Part shown: piece after piece, positions 80 to 38,060 of the stretch
Layout of the letters: each line of letters opens with the position of its first letter
Numbering within the stretch: position 1 is the stretch's first letter
NCBI RefSeq assembly: GCF_032854445.1
Contig: NC_088295.1
Coordinates: 60,989,249 to 61,053,248 of the forward strand
Direction of reading: 5' to 3'
Length of the DNA: 64,000 bases
DNA from: Liolophura sinensis
Taxonomy: Eukaryota; Mollusca; Polyplacophora; Chitonida; Chitonidae
The notes under the pieces: generated by a model
Told to the model about the DNA's origin: nothing
What the model saw: only the letters and a program-made list of their open reading frames with translations
Databases searched by the model: none
Position numbers and translations under genes: made by a program

Positions 80-3000
80 GGTGGCCGATAACTTAAGTGA
101 CGAATGCTTCACGTTGTTGAGTTATCGGCCACCACTGTAAAGATCGAGTTTGTTTAAGGTAAATCGGTAATAATTACAGTTGTTGCTAATATTGGATAGT
201 GTACACATGTCCATGCACATGAACACATGTCTATTGTCTGTTTCTGCAATTATACTTTTCAAAATGCCTTCCAACGAAGCCTTAAATTGAGCATCGATAT
301 ATAGGCCTATATTTTATTTATAACACGAAATTGTTTTATTTTTATTCCAGGAAATGTCTCAGAAACTGCAATACGCCGCCCAAAATATGCAGAAAGCCTT
401 GGAGGCTGTTAGAAGTGGATGTAGCCAGCGTTCAGCTTCTCGACAGTTCGGAGTGCCCAGGGCTACCTTGCAGGACAAGCTACTAGGACGATCTCCAGAG
501 GAGCGACGGATGGGGCCTGCTCCAGTATTAACCCCGGAAGAGGACAACAAGTTGGAGAACTGGTTAATTGAACTTTCAAGGGCTGGTTTTCCTAGAAAGA
601 AAGATGATCTTCTCGACACTGTAATGAAGATAGTAGAAGAAGACGGGCGTCCAAACCCATTCATTAATAACAGGCCAAGTGACACATGGTACAGAAATTT
701 CCTTAAGAGACACCCAGCGATTTCAGAGCGTACAGCAGAAACTATATCAAAAGCTAGATCCCTAGTTAATGAAGCCAACATTCGAAAATGGTTTAAGGAT
801 CTGGAGTCTTTCTTACAAGAGAAAGGATGTGCCGATGTACTTTGCGATGGTAGGCGCATATTGAATGCGGATGAAACAAATTTCCAAATGTGTCCTAAGA
901 GCGGAAAGGTTTTGGGACCGAAAGGATGGAAGGACGTTTACGAGATCGCCCCTGGGAAAGAAAAGGAAACTCTAACCGTGTTGGGAACATTTAACGCCAG
1001 TGGAGAAGTCATCAAGGGAATGATTGTCTACCCTTACGCACGACCTCCTAAGGATTTGGTACGTGCTGTGCCGGATAACTGGGCAATCGGACGGTCCGAC
1101 ACAGGATGGATGAAATCGGAGACGTTTTACGAGTACGTGGCAAACGTACTTCATCCATGGCTTAAGGAAAACGAGGTGACTTTACCGGTTCTGTTTATAG
1201 TCGATGGACATAAAACCCATCTGACACACCAGCTGAGTGACTTCTGCTCCAATAACGGAATAATTCTGTATTGTCTCTTCCCAAATGCCACCCACATTCT
1301 CCAGCCAGCAGATGTTTCCGTTTTCAGACCCCTGAAGCTGGAATGGAGAAAAAGTGTTAAATCATGGCAGACAGAAAATCCGGGGAAATCTTTAGCTAGG
1401 AAAGAATTTGCCCCACTATTGGACAGAGCAATGTCCGAAATCACGGCTGACACAATATCCAACGGCTTTAAGGCGTGTGGACTCTTTCCATTCAATCCTG
1501 ACGCTGTCAACTACAGCAAGTGCGTGAACCACATGACAACATCAGTTCATCAACCCACTAACTTACCTTCAACTTCCAGATCTGACGACAGTCTCCAGTC
1601 TGATATCACATTGCAAAAGTCAGATTTCCAGATTGCCGCTTCTGTGATTCAGCAGCTACTAGACGCAGGTCACGAACGGGATTTGGACGCCATTTTAGTG
1701 ACGCTAAAATCGAAGTCTGACGGTTTCTCAGAAATTTCACGTCCAACCGGTTTACTTCAGGGTAATGATCATGAAGATCCAGCAGTCATGGGTGGTGAAG
1801 ATCGAGTTCAAACAGATGGAGAACCTGCCGTTCAGTATGGTGAAATTCGGTCAATCAACGCTATCGAAGACACTCCGACAGTTCAGGGTAGTGCAGGTCC
1901 ATTAGCCATGGATAACATTTTTGATGTTCAGGTGGCAGACAACAGTGATCTGGACATTTCTCTCAGAGCACTTGTTACGGATCTCGGACTGCGTATTAAT
2001 GACCTGGGAGAACTACAAGACCACCTACTTCCAGGCACTTCTGTTGAAATTAGTGATGTCTCGAACTCACAGGACGCCGAAAACACACGCACGCCAGTGG
2101 ATGATCCGGTACAAACCGACGTGGAACAGCTCTTGTTACAAGTGTCAACTGATGAAAGCCGGTCAGTGATAACCGATGATCAGACAATGACAAACGCCGA
2201 TCCCATAGAACAGAATAGCAGTTCTTCATCATCTGATGTGATTGTGCCACGATCAGAAAATGTGTCTCCTGCGTTTGAAAAGCATCTATTCTGGCCACCT
2301 AGGAAGGCTGAAAACAAACCAAATGAAACCAAAAAGAAGACAAAAAAGAAATTACCGTACGCAGTATCGTCGTCTGAGTGGAGAAAAATGATCGAAGAAG
2401 CAGAAGCGGAAACCAAAAGACTTGAGGAGGAAAAGAAAAAAAGAAAAGACGAGAGACAAAGTAAAAAGACACAGAAAGAGATCCAAAAAGCTCAGAAAAA
2501 GACTGGAGAAAGTAAAAAGAGTTCAGCGAAGAAATCTACCGGCAGGAAATCTTCCACGTCGACGTCGTCTGATGCGCACACAGCACCTAATGAATTGGGG
2601 ACGAATCCATCTGGTACAACGGAGGATACCATTGCTGTATCCACTCAGGGAAATGAATTTACCAATGAACCTCCTGTTAACGGTGGCTGCGCGTCCTCTT
2701 CGGGGAAAACAGATCCACCCGTCACCATCTGTTTAGAGCCTTCTTTGGATACAGAGGTGACAAATCCTACTAGTTCGGCAACACTTGTAGCTCCTGGTGA
2801 TCAGGGAGTTGGAATACGAAAGAGAATCCGGGGTGTCCAAATAGAGGAAGCTATTAAACCGAAGCGGGCAAAAGGTGAAAGTAACTCGCTGGATGCACCT
2901 TGTCTGTATTGCAGTGAGCTCTTCAGCCTTTCAAAACCTGGAGAACAGTGGGTTCAGTGCGCAGGTTGTAAAATGTGGGCTCATGAAAGTTGTGCGGACA

Positions 3001-3503
3001 TATCTCTCGATGGATCTTTTGTTTGTGAATTATGCTCACACTAGGATCACGTTATTACTTTCAAAACCGTGCCGATACCAAATCGATGTTTATTTGTTGA
3101 AAGTTCTCCTGTTTGTTTTTAAGAAAAAAAAACTGCTCGTCTATCAGAATACTCGTTTTCTTGTCAATAAGATTAATTCGGAATCTATGTCTTACTCCAA
3201 ACAAAGGAAAATGTGGCGTGGCCAGTCATACGATGGTGCATATGTATAATCGGCCAGGGGGCCGATGGCCCGACGTGGTCTGGCCGAAATTGCAAATTAC
3301 TTGGCCGATTACTTAAAAAAGTGCATGCTTCATGCAAATTTCATGTTTTTGTTTGTTATGTTGAATTTTGACGAAAATATTGTTGTCAGACCTAAAAAGC
3401 AGGTAATTGTTCTTCTATAAATCCTTGTGCATATAAGGTCTGTCGACGTGCGTCACGTATAGATCGCCGCAAAGCTGCTGGACTAGTTAGGTGGCCGATA
3501 ACC
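80..3503 (+). mobile_element. pogo/Tigger-like DNA transposon, possibly complete
   Basis: The transposase ORF is bracketed by copies of a GGCCGATAAC-type motif. On the left, GGTGGCCGATAACT (80-93) and its exact reverse complement (120-133) form a hairpin. On the right the motif recurs near 3251, 3281, 3302 and 3490. The inverted pair 121-133 / 3490-3503 is the best candidate for terminal repeats, but I cannot place the exact ends or a TA target duplication. The intact ORF suggests a young or selectively maintained element. Confidence 0.6.
354..3044 (+). CDS. pogo/Tigger-type DDE transposase with C-terminal PHD-like finger (896 aa)
   Basis: The uninterrupted ORF has the domain order of a pogo-family transposase. 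A psq/CENP-B-type helix-turn-helix lies near residues 5-45, a second CENP-B-like DNA-binding region near 55-135, and a DDE_1 catalytic domain near 165-370. The likely catalytic acidic residues are D173 (NADET), D284 (IVDGH) and D320 (QPADVS), a DD35D spacing. A Ser/Thr/Asp-rich linker and a Lys/Glu-rich charged stretch (about 640-760) follow. The last ~45 residues carry paired cysteines and an H-E-S-C motif like a PHD zinc finger. The family cuts and pastes DNA, usually at TA sites. The ATG lies just after a pyrimidine-rich tract ending in CAG (349-351), so a 5' noncoding exon is possible. No frameshift or stop is present. A domesticated host gene is the alternative. Confidence 0.85.
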   Translation: MSQKLQYAAQNMQKALEAVRSGCSQRSASRQFGVPRATLQDKLLGRSPEERRMGPAPVLTPEEDNKLENWLIELSRAGFPRKKDDLLDTVMKIVEEDGRPNPFINNRPSDTWYRNFLKRHPAISERTAETISKARSLVNEANIRKWFKDLESFLQEKGCADVLCDGRRILNADETNFQMCPKSGKVLGPKGWKDVYEIAPGKEKETLTVLGTFNASGEVIKGMIVYPYARPPKDLVRAVPDNWAIGRSDTGWMKSETFYEYVANVLHPWLKENEVTLPVLFIVDGHKTHLTHQLSDFCSNNGIILYCLFPNATHILQPADVSVFRPLKLEWRKSVKSWQTENPGKSLARKEFAPLLDRAMSEITADTISNGFKACGLFPFNPDAVNYSKCVNHMTTSVHQPTNLPSTSRSDDSLQSDITLQKSDFQIAASVIQQLLDAGHERDLDAILVTLKSKSDGFSEISRPTGLLQGNDHEDPAVMGGEDRVQTDGEPAVQYGEIRSINAIEDTPTVQGSAGPLAMDNIFDVQVADNSDLDISLRALVTDLGLRINDLGELQDHLLPGTSVEISDVSNSQDAENTRTPVDDPVQTDVEQLLLQVSTDESRSVITDDQTMTNADPIEQNSSSSSSDVIVPRSENVSPAFEKHLFWPPRKAENKPNETKKKTKKKLPYAVSSSEWRKMIEEAEAETKRLEEEKKKRKDERQSKKTQKEIQKAQKKTGESKKSSAKKSTGRKSSTSTSSDAHTAPNELGTNPSGTTEDTIAVSTQGNEFTNEPPVNGGCASSSGKTDPPVTICLEPSLDTEVTNPTSSATLVAPGDQGVGIRKRIRGVQIEEAIKPKRAKGESNSLDAPCLYCSELFSLSKPGEQWVQCAGCKMWAHESCADISLDGSFVCELCSH

Positions 3504-4141: not shown

Positions 4142-4200
4142 ATGGCCGAGGATAAAGACTTTGAGCTCTTACAAAAATTAGAAAACCTGAAGGAATTGCG
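4142..4200 (+). CDS. ZC4H2: ZC4H2 exon 1
   Basis: Begins ATGGCCGAGGATAAAG and encodes [19 protein letters not shown] plus two bases of an Arg codon. The donor is GTAAGA at 4201. It corresponds to the human start MADEQEIMCKLESIKEIR. The phase is exactly complemented by exon 2. Confidence 0.9.
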
Positions 4201-7200
4201 GTAAGACGTTCTGCTGTATGCTTGAAAAAGACAAAAACGCAGATACTCCTGCATCATTTGTGTAATATTTTGAGAGGTTTGCTGTGAAAACTGACCTAAT
4301 ACTTACGCCGTCGCTGCAAGCAGCAGACTTGAACTGGCATCACTTGGCTGACGGATAGCCCTGGATGACTACGCGACGCTTTTTTTTTATTTATTCTGAC
4401 GTACGCGTAGTCATGTCGGGGTCCCCTTTGACGCGGTGGAAAGAATTGTAAAATTTCGGAAAACTGTCGATTATTAACCTACCACGCTCGCTCATTCACT
4501 CCTTTACAATGCTTGGGGCCCTAGGGCACATGACTAGGGCTCGAATCCAGTCAGTAAACCCTATATATGCATATAACAGCCTCTTACATTATAGTAAGAG
4601 GGAAAGGTATGAAATGACTTTCAACCGGCACCATGCAATGTTTCTGAAATAAGGCCTTCAGTCTCCAACTTTTTCCACTTGTTCCTCTACCTGGAGCTGT
4701 TATCTGCTCGAATTTCCAAATCAGTTGTATGTTGTCCCAGTTTCACTTTTATATGTTATTTGAGCCCACTAGACATTGGTCGTGTCTACGTGCCATCTTA
4801 CTTTGCTACGTATATCACATATGTAAAGGGAGGTAATAGATAGAGACAAGTTTCTAGTCTAAGTAAGATGGCGCATGGGCATGCCTGATGTCTAGTGGGC
4901 TCAGATAACACATATAAGTGCCACTGGGACAAAATACAATTAATGTGGAAATACTAATGGCAGATTTGAGCAGGTAGGGAGCCCCAGGTGTAAATATGAG
5001 TGGAAAAGTTGGAGGAATGGAGGTGAAGGGTTTGATTCCTTGAATTTCGGAGGCTTTGCATTGTGCCGGTCACAAGCCTTTTCATACCTTTACATCTTAT
5101 ATATATATGTAAGAGGCTTGAATTTCAGAGGCTTTGTATTGTGCTGGTCACAAGTCTTTTCATACCTTTACATCTTATATATATGTAAGAGGCTTGAATT
5201 TCAGAGGCTTTGTATTGTGCCGGTCACAAGTCTTTTCATACCTTTATATCTTATATATATGTAAGAGGCTTGAATTTCAGAGGCTTTGTATTGTGCTGGT
5301 CACAAGTCTTTTCATACCTTTACATCTTATATATATGTAGGAGGCTTGAATTTCAGAGGCTTTGCATCGTGCCGGTCACAAGTCTTTTCATACCTTTACA
5401 TCTTATATGTATGTAGGAGGCTTGAATTTCAGAGGCTTTGCATTATGCCGGTCACAAGTCTTTTCATACCTTTACATCTTATGTATATGTGGGAGGCTTG
5501 AATTTTAGAGGCTTTGCATTGTGCCGGTCACAAGTCTTTTCATACCTTTACATCTTATATATATGTAGGAGGCTTGAAGTTCAGAGGCTTTGTATTGTGC
5601 CGGTCACAAGTCTTTTCATACCTTTACATCTTATATATATGTAGGAGGCTTGAATTTCAGAGGCTTTGCATTGTGCCGGTCACAAATCTTTTCATACCTT
5701 TACATCTTATATATATGTTGGAGGCTTGAAGTTCAGAGGCTTTGCATTGTGCCGGTCACAAGTCTTTTCATACCTTTACATCTTATATATATGTAGGAGG
5801 CTTGAAGTTCAGAGGCTTTGCATCGTGCCGGTCACAAGTCTTTTCATACCTTTACATCTTATATGTATGTAGGAGGCTTGAATTTCAGAGGCTTTGCATT
5901 GTGCTGGTCACAAGTCTTTTCATACCTTTACATCTTATATATATGTAGGAGGCTTGAAGTTCAGAGGCTTTGTATTGTGCTGGTCACAAGTCTTTTCATA
6001 CCTTTACATCTTATATATATGTAGGAGGCTTGAAGTTCAGAGGCTTTGTATTGTGCCGGTCACAAGTCTTTTCATACCTTTACATCTTATATATATGTAG
6101 GAGGCTTGAAGTTCAGAGGCTTTGCATTGTGCCGGTCACAAATCTTTTCATACCTTTACATCTTATATATATGTTGGAGGCTTGAAGTTCAGAGGCTTTG
6201 CATTGTGCCGGTCACAAGTCTTTTCATACCTTTACATCTTATATATATGTAGGAGGCTTGAAGTTCAGAGGCTTTGTATTGTGCTGGTCACAAGTCTTTT
6301 CATACCTTTACATCTTATATATATGTAGGAGGCTTGAATTTCAGAGGCTTTGTATTGTGCCGGTCACAAGTCTTTTCATACCTTTACATCTTATATATAT
6401 GTAGGAGGCTTGAAGTTCAGAGGCTTTGTATTGTGCCGGTCACAAGTCTTTTCATACCTTTACATCTTATATATATGTAAGAGGCTGGTATATGGCGTAT
6501 ATAAGGTTTACGGACTGGATTCGAGTGCCTGTGCACCTGATTTTACAATGTACTACATACCAAGCAGGTTAGCTTCACCCACTCCTCGGATGAAATCGTC
6601 AGTGTTGGATGCAGAAAAACTTGCATCATGACATAAGGCTTTAGAAATGCATTATAATAAGGAATGGTCTGGTATATTTATATTTAAACAACGAGATCAA
6701 ACCAATTTGAGCATTTCTTCATCTTCATTCTGTAGGTTCTAGTTAATATATATATAGTAAATACATATTTTTTATCGCCATTATCTCCATTTCCGGGAAG
6801 AAAAGCCTTGTTCCTATTGGACATAACTGTGGAATCTCCTATAATGTCATGTGACATGAGCTCGCAGGTCTTCCCACGCAGTTCAAGCCTAATTTTGCAC
6901 GAGGAACTCACAGAAGAATGAAGATGTTCACAAATGGCTGAGTTTGAAAAGTTGTACTGTTGGAAGTTCTAACCAAGTTGCTTTGTCTAGTATCTACATG
7001 TTATCATGTTCTCTATGTTCTATGTACCTGAATATGTATGAGATACTACTTAAGCCACCTGCTTATTAATCCAGCTGATGATATACCTCATTGGAATTCC
7101 CAAGTCATGTGACGGTGAGAATGGCCTACTTCGTTCTGTGTGATTTCTGCCAGGTTTGAGTGTGACACTGCACTGCTTGGTATGTTAGTACATCGTCATG

Positions 7201-10200
7201 AACATGTGAAACTGGAATACTGGGGAAGCCGCTCCCCAAATCATATTATCTCCACATCACTGCAGCAACTCACTTTGAACGAATATCTCCCACTAACTGA
7301 ACTGAACAGTTCTCCGAACGCCATATTGTCATTTTCACAATTCAGGAATCGCCATATTCTGTGTGATAGAATACATACATGTACTTAGTCATTTTTGCCA
7401 TAAGTGCATCCTGTACCATGAACAGAAGTTGTTCTTCTCTAAGGTGAACGAATGGGAGGTATTTCATTTGTAGTTTCTGAAAATGATTAGAGAACAGGCC
7501 TCTACAGTGTTTCTGCTTCAGTTGGATCAACACCTGACTTTAATCGAAAAGTGCGGGATGAACTTCCAGCTTTGAACAGGGTACAATATGTGAAAGTGGT
7601 ATGTGTTTTAGTTCATTAACTGTTAGAGCAGTTGTGGCTGGGCTGACAGGCTGGCTATCACTTAGGCCAGGGTCTCGAGCAGCACAACTTACACTACTGA
7701 CCGATCCTAACAATATACTCTACGCTCATCTTGATCTGATGTGGGGTGGATCCGTGTTTTGCTCGCATGACTAGACCATCTAATGAACAACATGCTCATG
7801 TCTTCACTTTTCTGAAAGACTGGTAAAGAAATGTAATATTCTTCTTTCCACTAATATCTGTCTCAAATTTTAGAAGAATTATGGTATCTTCAGTTTGCTT
7901 ACCTGGCAAGGCAGGTGTGGTGATGAGAAAAGTCTGAGTAAATGGTCTTATGGTAAATGTCATTCGCCTAACTCCGACTCATTCAGCCAAGTAAAAAGCT
8001 GATCTAACCCAATGCACGACTTTTGATTTTTGCTTTCTCGTTTCGCAAGAAAGTTGATAAGTGTCAGCAGAAATGTGAAATCGTAACCGCATTACTGAAG
8101 AACCGGATTTCTTGCCAAAAGCTGTACTAATATTATAAATGATCTATTTGTGGTGCCTAAATTATCATGCATCAATTCTGTTATAACTACGAACTATATT
8201 TAGCACTTAAATCTAATTTCTCAGAAAATTTTGCACTGAAGAAAAATGTGTATTGCAGGTTATGGTTTTTTAATTATGTCCAGGAATAACCATCGCCGAA
8301 TAATTTCGGAAACAGTCAAAACTGGATCTGCATATTATCATGATCATGTGTGAATTTGTAACCATGTTGGGAACAAGACCATTTGTGAATAATTTTTTTT
8401 ATTCCAAGAGAACAAACAGAGTTGGTGTTGAACAACGCGGCATGTGTGAATTTGTAACCATGTTGGGAACAAGACCATTTGTGAATAATTTTTTTTTATT
8501 CGAAAAGAACAAACAGGGTTGGTGTTGAACAACGCGGCATGTGTGCATTTGTAACCATGTTGGGAACAAGACCATTTGTGAATAATTTTTTTTATTCCAA
8601 GAGAACAAACAAGGTTGGTGTTGAACAACGCGGCATGTCTGAATATTACTGTATGTTGTAAATGACCTGATGGTCGGGTCCTGCACCTATCATACATGAA
8701 CTAAAACATCTGTTATTTAAGTTACCAAAACATGATGTGCATGCAGACAGAGAGATTCGCAAACAGAATGGAAGCTGGGAACCATAGTAGTCATGCTCTT
8801 GTAGCAATAAACAACACCAATAGTGGAAACTTCAGTGATCTTTGAGCTGTGCTGCTCATTAACTTTTTTGTTCAAGTCGATTTTCGTTATGAAACTAACA
8901 AATATTAAATGCTGTAGCAAGGAAAGTCCTCGAAAGAGTAGTGCTACTCTAGATCCCAATTCAACAACATGGTGATATTGGTTCACAATCTCGAGTCTAG
9001 TTTGTGTTGGTTCAGTTGAGTCATTAAGTGAGAAGCTTGGCATTTATCATACAAAGAAGAGCATTTTATGCTGAACATGTATTTCAGCACCCATAAACCA
9101 GTCAGATCATCAAATTCAAGTACAAAATTTTTGAGGAATGCAACAGTCGGATTCATTCATCCGTATGAAGATCAACTTTCAGATTTTCTTACATTTATTG
9201 TAACACGGATTCAATCCCTGGATCTCAAAAAAAAAAAGAAAAATATGATAATAATTTCCAATCACCAGCTAGTTTCAGTGAGGTCCATGCTACAAACAGC
9301 AATGAAAATGTAATAGTTTTCTGAAGAATTTCATTGCCAGAACTCGGTTACATTTTAGAAACTACAGGTACATGTAGGGCAAGAGACTTTTGAAATTGGG
9401 TGTTGAGAGTGAGATGTTAGGTGTACCGTCACAGTTTTAGCATTTAATGTGGCCACGAAACAGGAAATTAGTTAGTTTCATTGGTGACGGTAGTAAATTA
9501 AGAAGGTACAGTAGTATTTAAGATTAAACCAGAAAATGACATAAAGAACAAAAGCAGGTGAGCTTGAATGGCAGATATGGCAGAAGTTGGAAGAACATTG
9601 GAGTTTGAAAGAGAACCAGGGATGGACTCCTGTCTTCATGTTACTGTGAATATCAGAATTTTGAAATAGCACACTGAGGCTGTTACATGGACTACAGTCA
9701 AGTGAATAAATGTAAGTTTGGGTTTTTTTCACAGGAAGTTTATGCTCTTCCTTTTTGAGTGAAGGTCTTGATAGTGGTTTGCATTCAGTCCTTATCAGTT
9801 TGACTTTTAGACATGGGTCTTTCTTCTTCAGGTCGAGAACCATTCATCTCGAAAAAGTCAAGTCAAGGCTTCGTCAAGAATTTGAAGCAGCCGAAACTGA
9901 AGAGAAATGCTTGGAAGATTACAAGCAGGAGATGGAACTGCTCCTGCAGGAGAAGATGGCTCATGTGGAGGAGCTAAGACTGATTCATGCTGATATCAAT
10001 CTGGTATATGTAGTGTAGTGCATGGGATAACTTAGTTGTTATCACACAACGTGTATGCTTGTTAGTGCTTGATCACAGTGGTGTTTAATGTCACTTTCCA
10101 CTAGATTTTGGTCATATCACAATGGTGTCACCAAGTATCTAGTTGGTGGATCCCAGTGTTGATATACTGACAGTGCTGCCTCAGTGAAATTCCCTGCCAA

Positions 10201-13200
10201 AAAGAAAACAAAACACACTACACAGGCACTCAGCTGGTATGGAAGACACACCAGCGGTATATCGCTGACACAGTAAGGATGTACAATATTCACACACAAC
10301 AGATATAGCAGACACACCAGAGGTACATCACTGGCACACCAAGAAGGTACAGCAGGTACACAACAGATATAGCAGACGCACCACGGGTATATCACTGGTA
10401 CACCAAGGATGTACAGCAGGTACACAACAGATATAGCAAATACACCAGAGGTATATAACTAGTACACCAAAACTGTACAACCGACACACCAAAGGTATAT
10501 CGCTGGCACATCAAGGACGTACAACAGACATAGGAGACGCATCAGGGGTATATCACTGGCACACCAAAAATGTACAACAGACACACAACAGATTTTACAG
10601 ACACACCAGGGGTATATCACTGGCACATCAAGGATGTACAACAGGTACACACAACAGACGCACCAGGGACACCACACAAGCACACCCCAGACACACTACA
10701 GACACATCACATACACACAACAGATATACATGTAGAAGACACACTAGTGGTATATCATACCACAGATACATCATGGACTCAAAGGAAACAAGACACACCA
10801 AAGACACATCACAGACTCATAACAAACGACTGACACACCAAAGACACATCACAGACTCATAACAAACGACAGACACACCAAAGACACATCACAGACTCAA
10901 AACAGACACACCAAAAGACACATCACAAGACTCTCAACAGACAACATACACACCAAAGACACATCACATAACAAACGACAGACACACCATTGACACATCA
11001 AAGACACATCACAGACTCATAACAAACGACAGACACACCATTGACTCACCAAAGACACATCACAGACTCATAACAAACGACAGACACACCATTGACACAC
11101 CAAAGACACATCACACATTCACAACAAACAACAGACACACCACTGACACACCAAAGACATATCACAGAATCAAAACAAATTACAGGGCCTCTGTGGCTCA
11201 GTTGGTTAGCGCGCTAGCGCAGGGTGATGACCCAGCGGTCTCTCACCATTGCGGTCGCTGTGAGTTCAAGTCCAGCTCATGCTGGCTTCCTCCCCAGCCG
11301 TACGTGGGAAGGTCTGTCAGCAACCTGCGGATGGTCATGGTTTTCCCCCGGGCTCTGCCCGGTTTGCACCCACTATAATGCTGGCCGCCGTTGTATAAGT
11401 GAAATATTCTTGAGTACAGCGTAAAACACAAATGAAATAACTAAATATATAAATCAAAACAAATTACAGACACACCAAAGACACATCACAGACTCGCTGT
11501 GATTTCAAGTCTCCTGCTGGCTCCCTCTCTGTCTGTACATGGGAATTTCTGCCAGCAACCTGCCAGATTTTTCTCCAGGCTCTGGCTGGTTTACTCCCAT
11601 TATAGTTCTGGCTCGTGGTATAAGTGAAATATTTATTATGCTGTAAAACACCAATGAAATAAATGAATAAATCAGCCCAATATCATTGTTGACATGTGGA
11701 ATCAACAAAAAGCATGTCAACTGAACACATCAGTGTTTTTGGGTGTGAAAACCAACATGTAACTCAACAGAAATTTTGGCTGATTTTTGCAGATGGAGAG
11801 CACTATCAAGCAAGCTGAAGAAGAGAGGTGCCGAGCTCTGGAGGGTGCCAAAAGGCTGTATGATGAGTATAAGCCTGTGAAACACCAGGTGGATGTCCTG
11901 AGATGTGGGATGGGCCTGGAAAAGTTACCTGGCCTTCAAGATGAGGAGGAGAAACTCACACCTGAGTAAGACATCTCTACGTGCCATGCTAGGTGTTTCA
12001 TGTAGAAACACTCGTCTACATGGACCTGTACCTTTAAAAATGCTGCTTGTGGAGTCTATGCGACAATAAACAGTCGACGATGCTCCTGTGGCTGTTTGAG
12101 CAGTTCATTGAAAAACACTTAATTGGCGTCCACCAGTATAGTGTTCATAACTGTACATCACAAGTAGGACAGTTGGTCATTAACTTGCCAAAGGTCACTG
12201 GTTATGCTGGATATTCCATGGTTTAACCAGTGACCACAATAGCAAAACTGGAAAAGTGTTAAGCGAGGTGTTTAGCAACTATCAAATAAGTGAATAAACC
12301 AATAACTTTAGACATGATGCACTTTGGCTTATGTTCACATGCATTGGTCATACCAGTGATTGAAGGGTTGAGAATTTTGTTCTTAAAACATTTCCAAATA
12401 AAGTGATAGGCACATGTTACATTGCATTCACAGTAAGGCCCTTCCCCAAACCTATCAGATCTTGAACCTATCGTGTTGCACTTTCTGGTTTGGCTGAGCC
12501 CTTAACTAAGGTTTATCAGGTACCTGTTGAGGTGCTGTGGTTTTTTCCAGGCTCTATCACATTTCCTCTGCCCATAAACCTTGGTCACTTAAATGAAACC
12601 TTCTTTATAGCATATAATTTATTTTTTTGTTAGAGTTGTCTCCCCTCCTCAAGCTGACTGTACAGGTTTGTGTTGGGTTTTAACTGCACTCCTAAAAAGT
12701 AAGAATGCCTGAAACTGATAAAAATAATATTTAGATAATGAAGGAGAAAAAAATTTAAAAAAAAAAACAGAAATAAAACAAAAAAGATAATTAGTTAAGA
12801 GTTCATTACCATTCCAAGCCTTTGGAATGTAGTTGGTCTCAGTAATATGGTATCTTATGAACTACCTAAGGATCATTATAATGAGTTTTAATAAATTTTT
12901 AGGTAATTGCACACCTAAGTAATAATGTGAAATGGAAAATATAGTCTCCATAACCCACCTCAAAACCTTAGAAAATCATTGCTTTAGTTGGATTTTATTG
13001 GTAAATAAAGAAATGTAAAGAAAAAAATATAATGTTGAACACAGTTCTCTTTTGCCTATTCTTTGCTTATTATTTGGACTGCTATGTATACATATAGGTC
13101 AGCTGCCAGTTTACATGAAATCCCAATGTAAGCTTTATTTTCTAAAAGATTTTATGCTTGGTTGACAGTTTTCAGTACAGCTTCAGGAATATTAATGTAC

Positions 13201-16200
13201 AATCAAAATATATTCATACATCAATGTATTAATGAATCAAAAGGAACAAATAGAAGTCAGTCATTATTTTGGACTTCTGTAGATTGGTGTGAAAATGGCA
13301 GAGCAAATGCAAAAACTTTGTTTCCCTCTGCACCCATATAGACACTTGTCTGCTGTAAAACAGCTGTGCATGGGTCCCTGGGAAAGGAGCACTTTTAAAG
13401 CAGGCAGTTGGTTGTCATCTGGCTGTATTAGTCAATATGATTGACACTTTGACAGGTGACTTGTAATATTTGTAATACTTTGAATTGGTGTCGACCAAGG
13501 TTGAGTGTTGTGATGGGAGCATGTTTCAAAATATGTATTTGTCAGATGGGTCAGTGTTCAAGATTATATCTACATATACTGTAGTAGAAAAATCTGAAAA
13601 ATAATAAAATAGTGCTTGACTGTGGTTAAATCTCAACTCAAATGTTCAATATACTTAATAGGTGCAAGTACATGCACATGTAACTGAAATTCACAGGTGT
13701 GGTCTGATTTGTAGCAGTTTTGTTCGTTATTACAAAATACACTGATTACAGATACATAATTATTACATAAGATCGTACAGAAATTACATTGTACATGTGT
13801 TAACGTACCAATCTTATTTTTCTGGTATAGTTGATGATGCACTTCATCCAAAAAAAAAAGCATTTCTTCAAATTTAATATACCTACATGTTGAGTGCTTT
13901 GTTTATGTAGAAAACCAGTTTTAACCCGGTTGGTACTTGTATTGTACTTTTCAGAATATGTAAGTGTACCTGTGGACCTGATACATATGTATGCATTCGT
14001 GATGTACAGGATTGAGGGAATGATCAATTTAATCCCTTATTGTGTTTTAGATATTTTGACAAGCCAAGTTCTCATGAACAGTGGCCCGTAGAAGCTCAGG
14101 AACCTCCCATTCCCCAGACGCTGGTTGCAGCAGCTGCAGCTGCGCAGCAGATACAGGTGCCGCGACCGAAAACAGAGCGCCAAGCCTTCAGGCAACAACC
14201 TCCCCCAATGAAAGTAAGTGGCTGTAGTGCAAATATGTCTTCCTGTTGTTTGGTTATGTTGAAAATATACACCATTTAAGTTCCCTAAATTAGGCCTGCC
14301 GTCGTCATATAAGTGAAATATTGTTGAATACGGCGTAAAACACCATTCAAATAAATAAATAAATAAATAAATTTATTTGATTTGTGTTTTACACTGTAAT
14401 GTAGAATATTTGCTTTACAACTGCAACCAGCATTATGGTTTGAGGAAACCCACACCACCTGACAACCACCAGGAGGTTGGTGGCAGACTTAAACCAACAA
14501 ATTTATGCTCAGTCTAATTTGTATACTGTAGTACATGCACTTAATCAGTATGTCCATATGGAAGTTGATTTACAAGGAAACACTTGTTGGCTCAATGATT
14601 TAAGAAATAATTCTGAAATTTTACTTAGCCAGAAAGGGTTCCTTTGTATGAGTGTTTAGATCCCACAGAAATGTCCATTTCAGAATAGAGTTATCCCCCC
14701 TTGACCATGTGTAAAGAACGTAATCACAAAATATCCTAGTCACTGACCGACTTTCATTACACCATTCTGCGTGTACCTCATCCCCATGTGCTTATCACAG
14801 AATACTGTATATCACTCATAAATAAAATATCTCAACACAAAACACTATTGATAGTATTAAAAACCTGCATTGTACATTGTACATGTTTGTGCACTGTTGA
14901 CACAATTAAAGAAGTATTCAGGGATTCATGGAAGGTCAGATTTTACAAAGTAGAACTCAAAACTTGATTATTTTTTTTTACAAATTGAGCTAAAACAAAA
15001 TATTCTGACCAGTTTTCCAGTCCATATTGAGCTCAAATATATTTCACAAACTGAGCCAAGTTTTATTTTGTATTATGCCATTATTTATATATTTCTGATA
15101 ACATCAATTTTACATCTTGAAATGTAGGATATGTAAATACAATTAATAAAGCAGCTTATTTTGAAAAAATAACACGTTTGTTAGATTTTCTGTGATTCAT
15201 GTCAACATATAGCCTACAAATAATATTTTTATTTTACTTTTTTTCCTTTCAGCTTTAAATACTGTTTATTTGATACTGCACTTTTCTTTTAAATATACTT
15301 TTTCTGCTTTATTTTACATGAGAAAATGACATTTTGTTCAGCTTAACCTTCTCACCTCTATATTTATTTTTTGCCTAATTTGAGAGGGAGTCACATTAGG
15401 CTTCCTTCAAAGTGAGGTTGTTTATTCGACAGACAGAATAGTAAAAATGTGTACAAGATCTTTACTTCAGCAGATTTCTTGCCTTGCTTTTTCTACGCAA
15501 GTGAATAAACTGATCTGAATGGAATTTCTCATGATTCTGACATGTTGACAAGATTACGCCTGTCTGACACAGCTAAATCTTACTACTGACAGACCCACCA
15601 AGCATGCATAATGTGGGGACGACTGCAAACACCGCCATCTATGATGTCACCTCCACACACTTAATGAATGATTATGGCTGAAGGCCACAGCGGCAACCTT
15701 AGATTCACTGTGTTTTAGCCCTGCTTTGGTTTTACTTGCATAGGTAAAACACTGCAAGCCAATGCAAAAATGAACAGAAACCAAGACACCATCTCTGTTT
15801 AATACATAATGACCGAGTTTATTGTTAAGAGCCTCAGTAACATTTGTGACAGCCAAGTGCTTGAGAAACGTTTTCAATTTGTTTATTAAGGTTAGCTGTA
15901 TGAATTCAGTTTTCTTACATTCCGTTTATATCGGCAAGTAAATTGAGTATAGTTATTTCTTTCTTTCAGATTTTTTTAGTGAAAATATTCAGTTTTTTGA
16001 CAGGCTATCATACAGGGATTGACGGCTAAGGTTTTTATTTTAACTCTTGTTGGTTAGGTTTCCATGGTCCAAAGGGTTAATAATGACCCCGATGCCACCC
16101 ACCAATGCCTCCCACCAATGCAGTCGCTCAGTTAAAGTCTAGCTCATGCTAGTTTCCTCTCTGGCTGTATGTGGGAAAGTTTGCTACGGATGGTTGTGGG

Positions 16201-18202
16201 TTGTGGGTTTGGATGGAAGGTTAAGCTTTTTTTTTTAGTTCTTGTGAAATGGGCACCCTTTTTTTGCTCTCATGCTTAAGGGATCGTGGATGGTGCTTAC
16301 ATTTTTCTGTTTTGTGAACTCGCTCTGTTCTGCTGTAAACACAGGTTTCTGTCTATATTTATTTATTTATCTGAGTGTTGTTTTATGCCATACCTGCATG
16401 GTACTGGAGAATATTTCACTTATAGAATGGCAGTTCTGTATATAAGCCTTCCATGTAGGGCTACAGTTTCTAGTGCAAGCATCTATATAGAGAAGCTTAT
16501 TGTCTCTATACTTATACATCTTGTATGTGTACTTTAACATATTTATGGAGTGTCAAAGTTTATATTATTTTTGAGCTTCATTTTCTCTGGTATACACATT
16601 ATCTGCAGAAGTTTTCCACTTTTTGTACTAGGAGCGTATGACCATAATGACACTGACTGCCGCATTTGCCCTCCTAGACTGCAATGGAATGGTTAAACCG
16701 TCCATAAACATGTAGTCAGTGTCTGTTGTCCACTGGGTATTTGCTCAGAAAAACATAGGAATTTGCAGTCACAGTACATGGATTGCCATATAGCGTTTTG
16801 CACATCAAAGACAACTCAAGCAAGTTTGTGCTCAAACTCCGTACAAAGAAGTTATTTTTCTACCGTATCTCATCATTTGCTCAGTCATTCACAGGGTTTG
16901 CCACCCATAGTGTATGAATTGCCAAATGCTGTTTGTGATTTACACCCGAGACGATTTGCAATGATATACATCATCCATAACATACGAGTGAGTGATTGCT
17001 TGGGGAATAATATCGTGCTTAGCAAATTCACAACCTATTATTTCGCTGCTCTGCAATCTTTATGCATATGATAAACAGTCATTTGTGACGGTGTAATAAG
17101 TGTGACCTTTCTTGTTAATTTAGTGGCAAGATCTTAGCACTGTCTTATAAGAGAATAATATCTGTGTATGACTGTGATTCTGCTTTATTTTGGTTTAGAG
17201 GTCAGTAGTGAACGTATCAGCTCACTTTTGAACATTATGCAGTTTTACGAACTGCTCAGTCAGGCGAGGCATTGGTGTTCTATAAATGCCTCTTAGGTTA
17301 AGTGTACAGTTTCTGCTTGGAAATAACAAGAAAAGACTAACTTAACATAGATGTACCCCCGAAATGACAGAAATCTAAACTACATTTACATGTACACCCA
17401 AAATATACCCTCAAATCAACAGAATGATGGCATGCAACATTTACATGCACTGTGTAAAGTAATACACCTCCCATTCATTAGTCTTCAAAAAGTACCTGTC
17501 TTTTCTGGGAGCAAATGATTAGAGATCAAGGTACCTTTTTCTCGCCTCACACACACTTAATTTCTCCAAGCTGTCAACTTAATCCTTTCCCCACTTGTAC
17601 ATGTATAAGTAGATGTTTGTAGTTTCAAGCTTTTCTTTTCTGTCAGGAGTTGTGTTACTTTTCAGTCATACATCTCCTGTCATCAGCTATTTCTAGGTTC
17701 ATACGCATTTCTCCTATCATCAGCTGGTAGTATGTCTGTACTTGTCCCTCCTGTCATCAACTGTTTGTATGTCTGTACTTTTCTCTCCTGTGATCAACAT
17801 TTTGTATGTCTGTACTTGTCCCTCCTGTGATCAACAGTTTGTATGTCTGTACTTGTCCCTCCTGTGATCAACAGTTTGTATGTCTGTACTTGTCTCTCCC
17901 TTGATCAACAGATCATATGTCCATTCTTGTCTCTCCTGTGATCAACAGTTCATATGTCCTTACTTGTCCCTCCTGTCATCAGCTGTTTGTATGTCTGTAC
18001 TTTTCTTCTGCCATCAGCTGTTTTGTAGTTTTATTCTTGCCTCCTGTTTTCAGCTGTTTACATGTTCATATTTTTTTTCTGTTTTCAGGCTTGTCTGTCC
18101 TGTCATCAGCAAATCCACCGCAATGCACCAATTTGCCCATTGTGTAAAGCCAAGAGTCGATCCAGAAATCCCAAGCGTCCAAAGAGAAAGCAAGAGGACT
18201 GA
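4142..18202 (+). CDS. ZC4H2: ZC4H2 zinc-finger protein gene, five coding exons, complete (226 aa)
   Basis: The spliced product closely follows vertebrate ZC4H2 (about 224 aa) from end to end. Exons are 4142-4200, 9832-10003, 11793-11965, 14051-14213 and 18089-18202. All introns are GT-AG and the phases match, giving 681 nt. Residues about 8-105 form a charged coiled coil ([18 protein letters not shown]). Next come a PPIP motif and an alanine run. The C-terminal C4H2 finger uses C191, C194, H195, H199, C205 and C208, and a basic tail ending KRPKRKQED is a likely nuclear signal. Vertebrate ZC4H2 is a nuclear factor in neural development that is reported to stabilise RNF220 and Smads; the role here is inferred by orthology. 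Introns 1 to 4 are rich in repeats. Nothing is truncated. Confidence 0.95.
4363..4414. repeat. Short hairpin in ZC4H2 intron 1
   Basis: ATGACTACGCG and its exact reverse complement CGCGTAGTCAT flank a T-rich loop of about 30 bp. No function is evident. The rest of 4201-4500 shows nothing recognisable. Confidence 0.5.
4505..6560. mobile_element. Foldback (palindromic) element with a satellite amplified in its right arm
   Basis: The left arm (about 4530-4805) and right arm (about 4860 onward) are imperfect reverse complements. Matching blocks, left versus right reversed, include CGAATCCAGTCaGTAAACC, AACAGCCTCTTACAT, AAAGGTATGAAA, ACCGGCACcATgCAA, CCAACTTTTTCCACT, TTGTCCCAG and GAGCCCACTAGACAT. 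The left arm holds one copy of a ~76-bp segment; the right arm holds about 19 tandem copies, after which the palindrome resumes at about 6475-6515. No coding capacity is seen. The outermost boundaries and any target duplication are unclear. Confidence 0.65.
5034..6486. repeat. 76-bp tandem satellite, about 19 copies
   Basis: Units run GAATTTCAGAGGCTTTG, YATTGTGCYGGTCACAAGTC, TTTTCATACCTTTACATC, TTATATATATGTARGAGGCTT. Copies are nearly identical with shared variants (GAAGTTC/GAATTTC, CACAAATC, ATGTTGGAGG, ATATGTATGTAGG). Unit length 76 is not a multiple of three, so the many ~68-codon ORFs are artefacts of the repeat. It lies within ZC4H2 intron 1. Confidence 0.95.
6561..7769 (+). other. ZC4H2 intron 1, unannotated part
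   Basis: Single-copy-looking AT-rich sequence. I see no exon, RNA gene or recognisable repeat. Confidence 0.5.
7776..7895 (+). repeat. Dispersed repeat, copy 1 (second copy at 44308-44432)
   Basis: Shares blocks CATCTAATGAACAACAT, CTCATATCTTTACTTTTC-like sequence, TAGTAAAGA and ACTAATATCT in the same order with 44308-44432. Family unknown; no coding potential. Confidence 0.6.
8345..8640. repeat. 96-bp tandem repeat, 3 copies
   Basis: Units start at 8345, 8441 and 8538 (95-97 bp) and share TTTGTAACCATGTTGGGAAC, AAGACCATTTGTGAATAA and GGTTGGTGTTGAACAACGCG. A fourth unit breaks off at 8640. ORFs on the minus strand here are repeat artefacts. 7896-8340 and 8641-9830 hold nothing I recognise. 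Confidence 0.9.
9832..10003 (+). CDS. ZC4H2: ZC4H2 exon 2
   Basis: Follows a TTCTTCTTCAG acceptor and encodes the main coiled coil from [10 protein letters not shown] to HADINL; the donor is GTATAT. The Met codon at 9755 upstream belongs to the intron and is not a start. Confidence 0.93.
10200..11170. repeat. CACACCA-rich minisatellite in ZC4H2 intron 2
   Basis: The first part (10200-10660) has units of about 65 bp with GACACACCAGAGGTATATC, ACTGGCACACCAAGGATGTA and CAACAG. The second part (10800-11170) has shorter units with CACACCAAAGACACATCACA and GACTCATAACAAACGACA. All share an AC/CA-rich core. The apparent Cys/Tyr/Leu-rich minus-strand ORFs are translations of this array and are not genes. 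Confidence 0.85.
11186..11451 (+). mobile_element. Full-length tRNA-derived SINE with 18-bp target duplication
   Basis: The tRNA-like head has an A box (TGGCTCAGTTGG) and a B box (GAGTTCAAGTCC). A body (GGGCTCTGCCCGG, AATGCTGGCCGCCG) and a tail (ATAAGTGAAATATTCTTGAG, then AATAA units) follow. It is flanked by a perfect duplication AATCAAAACAAATTACAG at 11168-11185 and 11452-11469, so it inserted into the CACACCA minisatellite. It is probably mobilised in trans by a LINE; family name not certain (MetaSINE/Deu-like is possible). Confidence 0.9.
11494..11675 (+). mobile_element. 5'-truncated SINE copy, same family
   Basis: Begins at CTGTGATTTCAAGT (B-box region) and continues through CAGCAACCTGC, TCCAGGCTCTGGCTGG, GTATAAGTGAAATAT and an AATAAATGAATAAAT tail. 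It lies just downstream of the full-length copy. Confidence 0.8.
11793..11965 (+). CDS. ZC4H2: ZC4H2 exon 3
   Basis: Follows TTTTTGCAG and encodes [11 protein letters not shown] through EEEKLTP plus two bases of Glu; the donor is GTAAGA. It continues the coiled coil ([17 protein letters not shown]). Confidence 0.93.
12500..12615 (+). mobile_element. Decayed SINE body in ZC4H2 intron 3
   Basis: TGTGGTTTTTTCCAGGCTCT, TTTCCTCTGCCCATAA and CACTTAAATGAAAC follow the SINE body in order with many substitutions. The rest of intron 3 (11966-14050) shows nothing recognisable. Confidence 0.45.
14051..14213 (+). CDS. ZC4H2: ZC4H2 exon 4
   Basis: Follows TGTTTTAG and encodes [21 protein letters not shown], the alanine-rich stretch and FRQQPPPMK; the donor is GTAAGT. 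A decayed copy lies at 3680-3880. Confidence 0.93.
14289..14372 (+). mobile_element. SINE 3' end
   Basis: CCTGCCGTCGTCATATAAGT, GAAATATTGTTGAATACGGC and GTAAAACACCATTCAAATAA match the SINE tail. It ends where an inverted copy begins. Confidence 0.75.
14373..14490 (-). mobile_element. SINE fragment, inverted, tail-to-tail with its neighbour
   Basis: TTTATTTGATTTGTGTTTTA, GAATATTTGC and CAGCATTATGGTTTGAGGAA are the reverse complement of the SINE tail and body. It shares its A/T-rich tail with the plus-strand copy at 14289-14372, so their transcripts would form a hairpin. 14491-16095 holds nothing recognisable. Confidence 0.7.
16095..16215 (+). mobile_element. Decayed SINE fragment
   Basis: CCACCAATGCAGTCGCT, AGTCTAGCTCATGCTAGTTTC, CTCTGGCTGTATGTGGGAAAG and CGGATGGTTGTGGGTT follow the SINE head-body junction. 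Confidence 0.6.
16352..16440 (-). mobile_element. SINE 3' fragment, minus strand
   Basis: TTTATTTATTTATCTGAGTG, TTGTTTTATGCCATAC and GGAGAATATTTCACTTATAG are the reverse complement of the SINE tail. 16441-17640 holds nothing I can identify. Confidence 0.65.
17660..18110 (+). repeat. ~37-bp minisatellite related to the start of ZC4H2 exon 5
   Basis: About a dozen units of CTGTSATCAACAGTTTGTAT plus GTCTGTACTTGTCCCTC run up to the exon 5 acceptor. The unit segment ACTTGTCCCTCCTGTCATCAG matches the exon start GCTTGTCTGTCCTGTCATCAG at most positions, and late units carry CCTGTTTTCAG like the acceptor itself. Translated units read CLSCDQQF or CPSCHQLF, mimicking CLSCHQQI of the zinc finger. These ORFs do not splice in and are not coding. 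Confidence 0.8.
18089..18202 (+). CDS. ZC4H2: ZC4H2 exon 5 (C4H2 zinc finger)
   Basis: Follows CTGTTTTCAG and encodes [19 protein letters not shown], a basic tail and a TGA stop at 18200-18202. All six zinc ligands of the family are present. Its first ~21 nt resemble the minisatellite unit that fills the preceding 430 bp. Confidence 0.95.
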
Positions 18203-27056: not shown

Positions 27057-27485
27057 GTGCGTCAAAGATCAATCGCCACTGCAGGATGGAAATAGCTTGA
27101 GGCGATCTTTGATGGTGGAAATAATGATGACATACGGCCAATCTATTGATTGCTATTCACAGATAATTGGCCACTGATAAGCGTGGCATATAGTCAACAT
27201 CTCCAATGTAGGGATTCCCTACAAACTAGGCCAAGTGCCCATTCTCTCACCATCAAGTATCTGAAGTACTGATACATGTCCAGATATTGTATTGACACCA
27301 CGAATAATTTCTTTACCTATACCCTTTGTTATTTTTCAACAAAATACTGGATAATTACATATGTTCATGCATATATATTGCCACTTTCTAACGCTTCAAC
27401 GATTAGTGGACATTTCTGTTGTTTCATCAATTATACTTCGATTTGTTTTCTGCTTTTTTTTTTTTTTGTCTTTCAGACCGCTGTA

Positions 27486-28055
27486 ATGGGTTGTGCAACG
27501 TCTGTTGCACTGCGCACTATACAGATGCGTGGTCCCGGGAACGCCAAAAACCATCATTCAAATCTGCAGATCAGTGATGAGCAGAAGCATGTGGTGAAGA
27601 AAACGTGGAAACTCTTATCAAACGACATGGCAGGGCACGGCTCGGAGGTCTTTCTGCGGATTTTTCAGCTGTACCCACATGTCAAACAGCTATTCCCGTG
27701 TCGTGATGCCGAGGGTGAAGAGTTGCTGCACCATCCGACATTTAAAGGGCACGCTTCCCGTTTCATGCAGGCCGTCGGAGCTGCAGTGGATAACATTGAC
27801 GATCTGGACGAAGCCTTGCGGCCTTTGCTTATTGGGCTCGGTAGACAGCATATTCATTTTAAAGGATTCCGTCCGGACTATTTCAATGCTTTCACCGAAT
27901 CGATGATGTATGTATGGCAACAGGAACTAAAAGAAAAATTCACAGACTTCGCGAAAGAAGCGTGGAAGACGGTGTTTGACTTCATAATGGGCACTCTGAA
28001 GGAAGGCTTTTTCTTGGCCCTCGACGAGGCTGGCATGACTGTTGATGATGTATGA
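27486..28055 (+). CDS. Globin, globin X/neuroglobin-like, uninterrupted coding exon (189 aa)
   Basis: The ORF encodes a full globin fold with the key heme-pocket residues: Phe CD1 at F70, distal His E7 at H89 (FKGHASRF) and proximal His F8 at H122 (GLGRQHIHF). Such proteins bind O2 or other gases or take part in redox chemistry. The start at 27486 was chosen because a T-rich tract and TTTCAG acceptor (to 27476) end just upstream, so the longer in-frame extension to 27276 is intron. The N-terminus MGCATS has Gly2 and Cys3, a pattern for myristoylation and palmitoylation as proposed for globin X, suggesting membrane attachment. No intron interrupts the coding part, although animal globins commonly have introns at B12.2 and G7.0. 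Ends with TGA at 28053-28055. Confidence 0.9.
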   Translation: MGCATSVALRTIQMRGPGNAKNHHSNLQISDEQKHVVKKTWKLLSNDMAGHGSEVFLRIFQLYPHVKQLFPCRDAEGEELLHHPTFKGHASRFMQAVGAAVDNIDDLDEALRPLLIGLGRQHIHFKGFRPDYFNAFTESMMYVWQQELKEKFTDFAKEAWKTVFDFIMGTLKEGFFLALDEAGMTVDDV

Positions 28056-28094
28056 GGCAACTGAATATATTTTAAAATTCATTCCGTTCTTTAA

Positions 28095-28694
28095 AGGTGA
28101 AGAAAACAAAAAAATGATGCGAAAATCAGAGGAAAGAACTTGAAAACTTATTTGCAGATACAGTCTTCAATATTTTTTAAAATTTTTTTCTTTCAGGAGA
28201 AAAGGGTACTTAAAAATATTTTTAAATGGTGGGTATTTGGGGCCACCTCTTAGTATTTATCGTCTTTGTGTAATAATGTTCTAAATTAAGATGCCAAGAA
28301 TGTCTAATTACTTTATTTGAATGTAAATTTGTTGTTTATATCCAAACACATGTATGTAATCTTAAGTATAATATTATCTACGACTGTATGAAAAGTATAA
28401 ATATCATCAAAATCCAAATATGTTCAAAACTGAACCCATTTGTTAGCTGGAAAGACCAAATTCTAATGCAAATATATTTATTAAACATGTGTTAGATTTT
28501 CATTTATAACATTCTCACGTAAAGGCAATATATGTACCAAAGGTTAACCCAAATACCCACCACACAAAAATTATTTTCAAGTGTCTTTTTCTCTTTAAAG
28601 AAAAATTAAAAAAAAATATTTAAGACCACATTTACAGGTAACTTTTGGCACTGTTTCATCTGAATTTTATGTACTTTTTCTGTTAGTTTCACCT
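28095..28694. mobile_element. 600-bp palindromic MITE with ~150-bp terminal inverted repeats
   Basis: The left arm (28095-28245) and reversed right arm (28546-28694) share AGGTGAA, a GAAAA/ACAAAA tract, ATATTTTTTTTAA-like sequence, TTTCTTT, GAGAAAAG and GTGGGTATTTGGG in order. Both ends abut TTAA (28091-28094 and 28695-28698), which could be a piggyBac-type duplication. The terminal bases AGGTGAA are not the usual piggyBac CCY start, so the class is open. It begins 36 bp after the globin stop codon and probably contributes its 3' UTR. Confidence 0.6.
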
Positions 28695-29440
28695 TTAACA
28701 GACTAATAGGTCATCTTTTCCCGTCCAGTGACGATTCGGGTCGACGGCGAAACGGCGATTGTTTTTTTTTTTCAGTACAACGTAACCAATTTGCTCACAA
28801 ATTACTTTAGGTGGGAAAGATAACATATTAAACACCCCAGAATACGTGAATATTTTATCACTGAGGGAATTAAACGTGCACTTCGTTTCAAACAATTTAC
28901 ACCGTGCTTTTTTCGGGCACTGTTTACACATTCGTTGGACATTTGCATGATCAAGTCGGAGGGAAGGAGACATACACGAATCAGAAAGTCTCTTGCGACA
29001 ACCGCTGCTCTTCTTCACCCTGCAGTGTTCTGTATGAAGATATGTGATTTTTCATAGCATGTTGACGGATTGATGAGTTCCTCTTTCGTAGTTTGAAAAA
29101 TACAAAATGAATATATATTGTATCAAAACATTGTGGTATCGTTTAATTTCTTAAAATTTACTCTCAAAATATATAAACTGTGTCTCATATTTTGCTACTA
29201 AAGTTGTTGGTTATTAAGTCGCATATATTTGTGTTGAAAATCGAAACCAATAATCAATAACTAACTGTCATAAGAGTCCCGGTATTTATATTTTGTATTA
29301 CGTGTTTGGACGGCGGTTCTCTGATATGTCGAGCGTCTGATGACAAAGAACATGCAGTCTGTGATGAAAAGGCGGCAGTATACTAAAACAAACCTGAATG
29401 TATGAAATATTTAAACGGAATTCTGAAACTCTTCAGTCGC

Positions 29441-29568: not shown

Positions 29569-29876
29569 AACTCTTCAGTCGCCCTGAAATATAAAAAAAA
29601 TAAAAGTTGTGTGTTATTCTGAAACACCCATGCTGTACGCTCATAAGCGACTCTGTCCTTAACCTACCAGGAATGACAATTTGTAAACGACTCGAACAAT
29701 AAATGGTTTTGTATAAGTAGACCCCTATAATACATATCTGGAAAGGCTTCCTAGCAAGTAAGTAGAATTGCTTCGATGGAAACCAAGGGTCTCATTTTAT
29801 AGATGTGTGTGGGAAGCTGTATATAAAACAAAAGCTGGATATTAGGCAAGGGGTTTACCGACCCCGTTTAAAAATT

Positions 29877-30142
29877 AATTTATTTATTTATTTGTTTGGT
29901 GTTTTACGCCGTACTCAAGAATATTTCGACTTATACGACGGCGGCCAGCATTGTGGTGGGAGGAAACCGAACAGAGCCCGAACGAAACCCACGACCATCC
30001 GCAAATTGCTGTCAGACCCTCCTACTTACGGCCGGAGAGGAAGCCCGCATAAGCTGGACTTGAACTCACTGCGACCACATGGGTGAGAGGCTCCTGGGTC
30101 ATTACGCTGCGCTGGCGCGCTAACCAACTAAGCCTCGGAGGG
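29877..30142 (-). mobile_element. Full-length SINE, minus strand
   Basis: The reverse complement carries the tRNA head (CGAGGCTTAGTTGGTTAGCG, CGCCAGCGCAGCGTAATGAC), GAGTTCAAGTCCAGC, the body and CGTAAAACACC. This is one of the best-preserved copies. Several short ORFs across it are not genes. Confidence 0.9.
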
Positions 30143-30675: not shown

Positions 30676-30919
30676 GAATAGAAAGTGAAAGAAATTCAAT
30701 ACACGTTGGACAGCTCAGACTGTCGAAACTGTCGGAAGACGTTCTTGTAGCGTTTGTGAACGGCTTAAAGACGGTAAGTATATGTCAGCAATGTAGAAAT
30801 ACCTTCTTTCAGAGGCATTTAGGAATTGGGAATGGTATAGATTGACAGAGGCATTACTTATGGATAACAATTCCTGGATTTATTGTGTTGGTGACACAAC
30901 CCATAGGGAAGAACCCAAA

Positions 30920-31258
30920 GGATCTGTGTACTGCATTAATTGTGATTGTCAACAGTAATACATTGGAGAAACCGGTAGACCACTCAATATCAGAATTGCA
31001 GAGCACAAGGCCTCAGTAGAAAAATTAGATGGAAAATCAGCTCTCAGTGACCACATCAGAGCCCATCCAGAACACCAACTCCAATGGAACACAGTTCATA
31101 CCCTACAAAACAACCAGTCAGACTATAAAAGAAGGAAACTGCTGGAAGTCATCATGATCCGACGACACAATCCTCAGCTTAACCGAGACAGCGGGTACCA
31201 CCTACCGAGCGCCTACAATGACCTCATCAGATTAGACAGTGACCGCCTTAAACCCTGA
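30920..31258 (+). pseudogene. GIY-YIG endonuclease domain of a Penelope-like element, interrupted
   Basis: The frame reads GSVYCINCDCQQ, a stop (TAA at 30956-30958), then YIGETGRPLNIRIAEHKASV, a KRRKLLEVIMIRRHNPQLN segment and a TGA at 31256-31258. The paired cysteines before YIGETGR, the conserved R and E(H), and the downstream EVIMIRRHNPQLN block are typical of the domain, which nicks target DNA. The single in-frame stop indicates decay. Confidence 0.8.
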
Positions 31259-31366: not shown

Positions 31367-31408
31367 TGGTTTGATAACGACGTAAGAACCTACAGCGAAA
31401 CGTCACCA
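31367..31408 (+). ncRNA. Degenerate hammerhead-ribozyme-like motif in the Penelope fragment
   Basis: TGGT (31367-31370) can pair with ACCA (31405-31408) as stem I. TTGATAACGA sits where CUGANGA is expected, and GAAAC plus GTC (31397-31404) fit the other core strand and cleavage triplet. C3 and G8 positions are altered or an insertion is present, and stem II is poor. Hammerheads are known in Penelope-like elements, so this is probably a decayed one. Confidence 0.35.
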
Positions 31409-31469
31409 ACACAATAAATCCAGGAATTGTTATCCATAAGTAATGCCTCTGTCAATCAATATAGAAATA

Positions 31470-37906: not shown

Positions 37907-38060
37907 GTTTCACATCAACACGATGAACCCCTTTTTTAGTAAAAAAAAAAATTGCGGGAAACTGTCATAGTCTAAAACCATAATAATTTTGTCCAAATTG
38001 GATTTACGGGAAACTTGAAGTCATGTACCAAGTTTGAAATGAATAGGACGGACAGAAACA
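37800..38060. repeat. Possible repeat flanking the LINE 5' end
   Basis: Two related halves (CCAAACTTAAGAGTTCGAAA with ATGTAGCAAGTTTCACATC; TCCAAATTGGATTTACGGGA with ATGTACCAAGTTTGAAATG) suggest an internal duplication. The function is unknown. 38061-38740 holds nothing recognisable. Confidence 0.35.

Follow-up and report, generated by a model that had tools for sequence, protein, structure and literature searches.

The ZC4H2 locus

The window, by which we mean the whole 64-kb stretch of chiton DNA that was analysed and in whose coordinates all positions are given, carries the gene ZC4H2 on its plus strand. A long imperfect palindrome sits at about 4523-6538, with a tandem array interrupting its right arm. 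The first-pass annotation had put this element inside an intron of ZC4H2, and the splice sites, together with the Pfam zf-C4H2 matches, identify the intron as intron 1. The first coding exon, 4142-4200, presumably resembles vertebrate ZC4H2, and exon 2 begins at 9832, directly after TTCTTCAG. Matches to zf-C4H2 were found in the frames 9716-10015 (E 2.4e-22) and 18059-18154 (E 3e-12), and a weak match, under the curated cut-off, in the frame 14016-14276 (E 1.5e-4). Just upstream of ZC4H2, a 906-aa open frame at 324-3041 encodes a transposase with DDE_1 (E 1.9e-15) and HTH_psq (2.6e-8) domains, which we take to be of the pogo/Jerky-like subfamily. The features of the gene and of the element are as follows.

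4142-4200, plus strand: first coding exon of ZC4H2, read from its translation and splice sites; the last codon is split and the donor, GTAAGA, stands at 4201.
4201-9831, plus strand: intron 1 of ZC4H2, within which the element lies; donor and acceptor were read, and the exon 2 frame matches Pfam zf-C4H2.
4503-4511, unstranded: left copy of TTTACAATG, an uncertain candidate for a 9-bp target-site duplication, separated from the matching end of the arm by about 11 bp.
4523-4803, plus strand: left arm of the palindrome (self-comparison, blastn, arm alignment).
About 4578-4653, minus strand: the one match to the 76-bp unit in the left arm; its identity to the 19 array units is 77-80% in every case.
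4804-4860, unstranded: 57-bp centre between the arms (self-comparison and arm alignment; DNA folding of 4700-4965).
4861-5040, minus strand: inner part of the right arm (self-comparison and arm alignment).
5041-6486, unstranded: 19 tandem units, the first of 78 bp and 18 of 76 bp (TRF and unit listing).
6487-6538, minus strand: outer part of the right arm, in which the palindrome resumes (arm alignment; E = 2.8e-8 to 4540-4575).
6542-6550, unstranded: right copy of TTTACAATG, the same candidate 9-bp target-site duplication, here separated from the matching end of the arm by about 3 bp.

Structure of the palindrome and its array

Self-comparison, the check proposed for the claim that the arms align, found inverted arms on both sides of the array. 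Three inverted pairs were recovered: 4712-4803 with 4861-4952 (92 nt, 82% complementary), 4570-4648 with 6416-6494 (79 nt, 78%) and 4540-4570 with 6495-6525 (31 nt, 90%). By blastn against the whole window, the segment 4480-4870 matched 4861-5118 (E = 7.5e-27) and 6416-6525 (E = 2.6e-26) on the minus strand. When 6487-6541, beyond the array, was searched alone, its best non-self match in the 64 kb was the left arm at 4540-4575 (E = 2.8e-8), and the palindrome thus resumes past the array as had been proposed. For an alignment of the complete arms we kept one array unit and left out the remaining ones: 230/270 aligned positions are identical and 40 are mismatches, while gaps take up a further 49 or 51 positions, according to which unit is kept. 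The alignment scored 288, against a maximum of 69 for the left arm with 288 random segments of the window. The arms were originally described as matching over several hundred bases; the alignment upholds the match, but each arm spans about 280-310 bp with one unit kept, mismatches make up 15% of the aligned positions and there are many small indels. Similarly, the range first given, 4505-6560, does contain the element, but the aligned element occupies about 4523-6538, and the wider range takes in most of the flanking 9-bp repeat. The inner arms and their 57-bp centre (4700-4965) fold as DNA with -63.6 kcal/mol (z -11.2), a value that 0/200 shuffles equalled.

We compared the inverted similarity of the flanks across 12 TRF arrays of the window, merging overlapping rows by hand and leaving out three dinucleotide runs and four short arrays (16092, 39864, 56118 and 56369). 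With permissive gap costs and 200 controls, the flanks of the element scored 69 against a control mean of 80, and the element was not separated from the controls. With blastn-like costs and 400 controls, its inverted flanks scored 50 against a control 95th percentile of 28; the other 11 arrays scored 18-25, leaving the element alone among the 12 above that percentile. The control tail in this stricter test extends to 71 at the 99th percentile and 115 at the maximum, with 1% of controls at 71 or more. A palindrome produced by chance was ruled out by the self-comparison, blastn, the alignment score against random segments and the flank test.

TRF reports the array at 5039-6486 with a period of 76, 19.0 copies and 96% matches, and blastn finds one copy of the unit in the left arm, confirming the earlier description of a 76-bp segment that is single on the left and present about 19-fold on the right. 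Outside the array and the left arm, blastn found no 76-bp unit in the window at E 1e-3, and the left-arm unit shows no trace of an adjoining second unit. Pairwise identity among the 19 array units averages 95.6% (92.1-100%), and the Jukes-Cantor distance is 0.045 among them versus 0.165 between the arms. Because the units are 95.6% alike and only 77-80% identical to the left-arm unit, those now in the array share a source later than the split of the arms. Either the array arose after the arms had diverged or it has been homogenised since, alternatives that one locus cannot separate. The left-arm state GTAAGAGG is kept by the first three units of the array and by the last, and in its place the 15 middle units carry GTAGGAGG, GTTGGAGG or GTGGGAGG. 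Such a distribution, with GTAAGAGG at the edges and other bases in the middle, is the pattern of an array growing inside. At 19 local units and 1.45 kb, the array has the scale of a minisatellite-like array; the first-pass annotation had spoken of a satellite being born, which goes beyond what the window shows, a single array of the unit with no second one.

A six-unit higher-order structure was considered and rejected. At lag 6, 4/12 unit pairs show a single difference or none, which 1053/20000 shuffles match at that lag; over all lags the pattern is non-significant, the same fraction being reached at some lag from 1 to 9 in 5369/20000 shuffles. A single 76-bp unit makes a weak hairpin (z = -1.46), and 23/200 shuffles fold equally well.

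Origin of the element and its array

The element has the form of a foldback or long-inverted-repeat element: long inverted repeats at its ends enclose a short centre, and tandem repeats lie inside the inverted arms (19 in the right, one in the left). We infer from this form that it is likely to have been mobile. There is no transposase inside the element, and blastn found no second copy of it within the 64-kb window. A shared 9-mer or longer occurred in 66/20000 random pairs of 36-bp flanks, but the 9-bp repeat TTTACAATG does not abut the matching ends (about 4523 and 6538), unlike a clean target-site duplication. Elements of the Mutator superfamily make target-site duplications of 8-11 bp; measured against the traits of that superfamily (transposase or terminal sequence, and the 8-11 bp duplication), the element shows only the uncertain 9-bp repeat.

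A second palindrome (28091-28698; 67% over 622 columns, E 1.8e-35), AT-rich and about 600 bp long, lies a short way downstream of a globin gene. It has TTAAAGGTGAA at both ends, TRF found no tandem array in it, and it is possibly a MITE with TTAA target sites. Its comparison with the array-bearing element gave no significant match (best E 0.82). Its matching TTAAAGGTGAA ends suggest that this genome is a usual host of inverted-repeat elements.

With a probability of roughly 0.7, we regard the element as the decayed relic of a non-coding, non-autonomous foldback (long-inverted-repeat, MITE-like) transposon, in which a segment of the right arm was duplicated in tandem and then expanded locally. 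Without the extra units, the relic in intron 1 of ZC4H2 is about 0.65 kb long. A 76-bp segment of its right arm would then have been duplicated in tandem, probably via replication slippage or a template switch during repair, through very short homology at the ends of the segment. Slippage or unequal exchange would have raised the array to 19 units, and the left arm would not have been converted to match the right. At the array borders, the present right arm has only CT in common, which counts against this account; in the left arm there are a few more bases of possible border homology (AAGGCC|TT and AGAGGCT|GT). The border sequences would suit an origin by slippage or template switching that needed very little homology, with unequal exchange afterwards, although they are no proof of it. 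In favour of the relic we count the alignment of the arms on both sides of the array, the closer likeness of the units to one another than to the left-arm unit, the placing of GTAAGAGG at the array edges, the 9-bp repeat near both ends, the score of the element in the stricter flank test and the precedents of Tetris and Galileo; against it stand the lack of a sister copy in the window, the misplacement of the 9-bp repeat, the failure of the permissive flank test to separate the element from controls and the 1% of controls that score 71 or more in the stricter one.

We infer expansion rather than contraction of the array, and its low unit divergence could also stem from later homogenisation of an old array. 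The corresponding alternative, which we judge unlikely, is an ancestral element with tandem units in both arms, as in some copies of Galileo and Tetris, of which the left lost all but one and the right was homogenised later. Such homogenisation would give equally low divergence among units, and the repeats in the two TIRs of Galileo F are described as expanding and contracting independently (PMC3573991). That the left-arm unit bears no trace of a neighbour, and that a single unit is the simpler ancestral state, speak against it, neither point being decisive.

The missing second copy in the 64 kb and the unclean target-site duplication would also fit an origin without transposition, in which the palindrome came from a local inverted duplication and one of its arms later gained a minisatellite by chance. 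The 9-mer common to both outer flanks, at the frequency of 66/20000 given above, and the matching TTAAAGGTGAA ends of the window's other palindrome, 28091-28698, argue against this origin and make it quite improbable in our estimation. That the array or its unit count is an assembly artefact is scarcely credible: unit counts in assemblies can be wrong, but the units differ from one another in their substitutions, and diverged arm sequence adjoins the array at either border.

The array is most likely neutral intron DNA without a function of its own. It is very unlikely that foldback elements of this lineage repeatedly amplify this segment in one arm only and that other satellites of the genome have been seeded by the 76-bp unit; if this were true, the longer single arm would break the symmetry of an unstable palindrome, so that the element survives in a gene.

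Comparable elements and other features of the window

Among the closest structural likenesses, judged from published descriptions, are two elements of Drosophila. Tetris of Drosophila virilis is described as a non-autonomous foldback element with tandem repeats within its inverted arms, target-site duplications of 8-10 bp and alleles that differ in left-arm repeat number (three versus four); its arm repeats seed a satellite, the unit making longer arrays elsewhere of up to 66 copies (PMC4079207). The foldback form and the tandem repeats in the arms are shared. As described, Tetris differs in having units of about 220 bp, arms of up to 1,735 bp and several known copies, whereas the chiton element has 1 versus 19 units of 76 bp and one known copy. 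Subfamily F of Galileo, in Drosophila mojavensis, is reported to carry tandem repeats in its TIRs, the two arms of a single copy differing in how many they have (PMC3573991), and the difference in repeat number between the arms is, by its description, the point of likeness. Unlike the chiton element, Galileo is described as belonging to the P-superfamily, with an identified transposase, two or three repeat units that each measure about 210 bp, and 7-bp duplications (PMC3573991).

The Xenopus miDNA4 and Xstir MITEs are covered in two reviews (PMC12628747 and PMC9659126). According to these, the miDNA4 satellite unit occurs as a single monomer or in arrays whose copy number varies, and short homologies have been put forward to explain this (PMC12628747, PMC9659126). 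The element here resembles miDNA4 in that its unit is single or arrayed; the descriptions drawn on here mention no unit that is present in both arms yet amplified in a single one. In bivalves, the pearl or DTC84 elements are described as small and modular; the short satellite-like arrays inside them reach six monomers (PMC5139131). The chiton element is similar in its small size and short internal satellite-like array, and differs in that the array occupies one arm of a long palindrome rather than a modular element with up to six monomers. The process itself has already been published, as far as the accounts of Tetris, Galileo and miDNA4 describe it, and the present element is more extreme (1 versus 19), yet of the same kind. 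Here, the left-arm copy of the segment provides a built-in control that shows how it looked before it was amplified, both borders of the array are intact, and unit divergence can be compared with arm divergence at the same locus, making this a good teaching case for the birth of a tandem array in an inverted-repeat element.

The window as a whole gave no Rfam match at gathering scores and no tRNA by ARAGORN. Two patterns sought in viral and prokaryote contig collections gave no matches, a result uninformative for an animal repeat. A globin domain (E 3.5e-21) lies in the frame 27273-28052, which also has an internal MGCATS start that could be a lipid-modified N-terminus. A dispersed repeat of about 270 bp, SINE-like in size, is present in three copies that are 82-84% alike (11188-11454, 29874-30141 and 43049-43321), with shorter pieces near 14300 and 22500. 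An inverted pair of 60 bp, 98% identical (30836-30895 and 31402-31461), flanks the open frame 30959-31255, which may resemble a GIY-YIG endonuclease. Two further inverted pairs, 51731-51826 with 52753-52851 (75%) and 51997-52101 with 52953-53047 (72%), surround a frame on the minus strand whose CNNM match is weak and under the cut-off, and the region 51731-53047 is perhaps an old inverted duplication. On the minus strand, 35523-37909 holds the remains of a non-LTR retrotransposon, where one frame matches RVT_1 (E 1.8e-15) and another Exo_endo_phos (6.1e-7).
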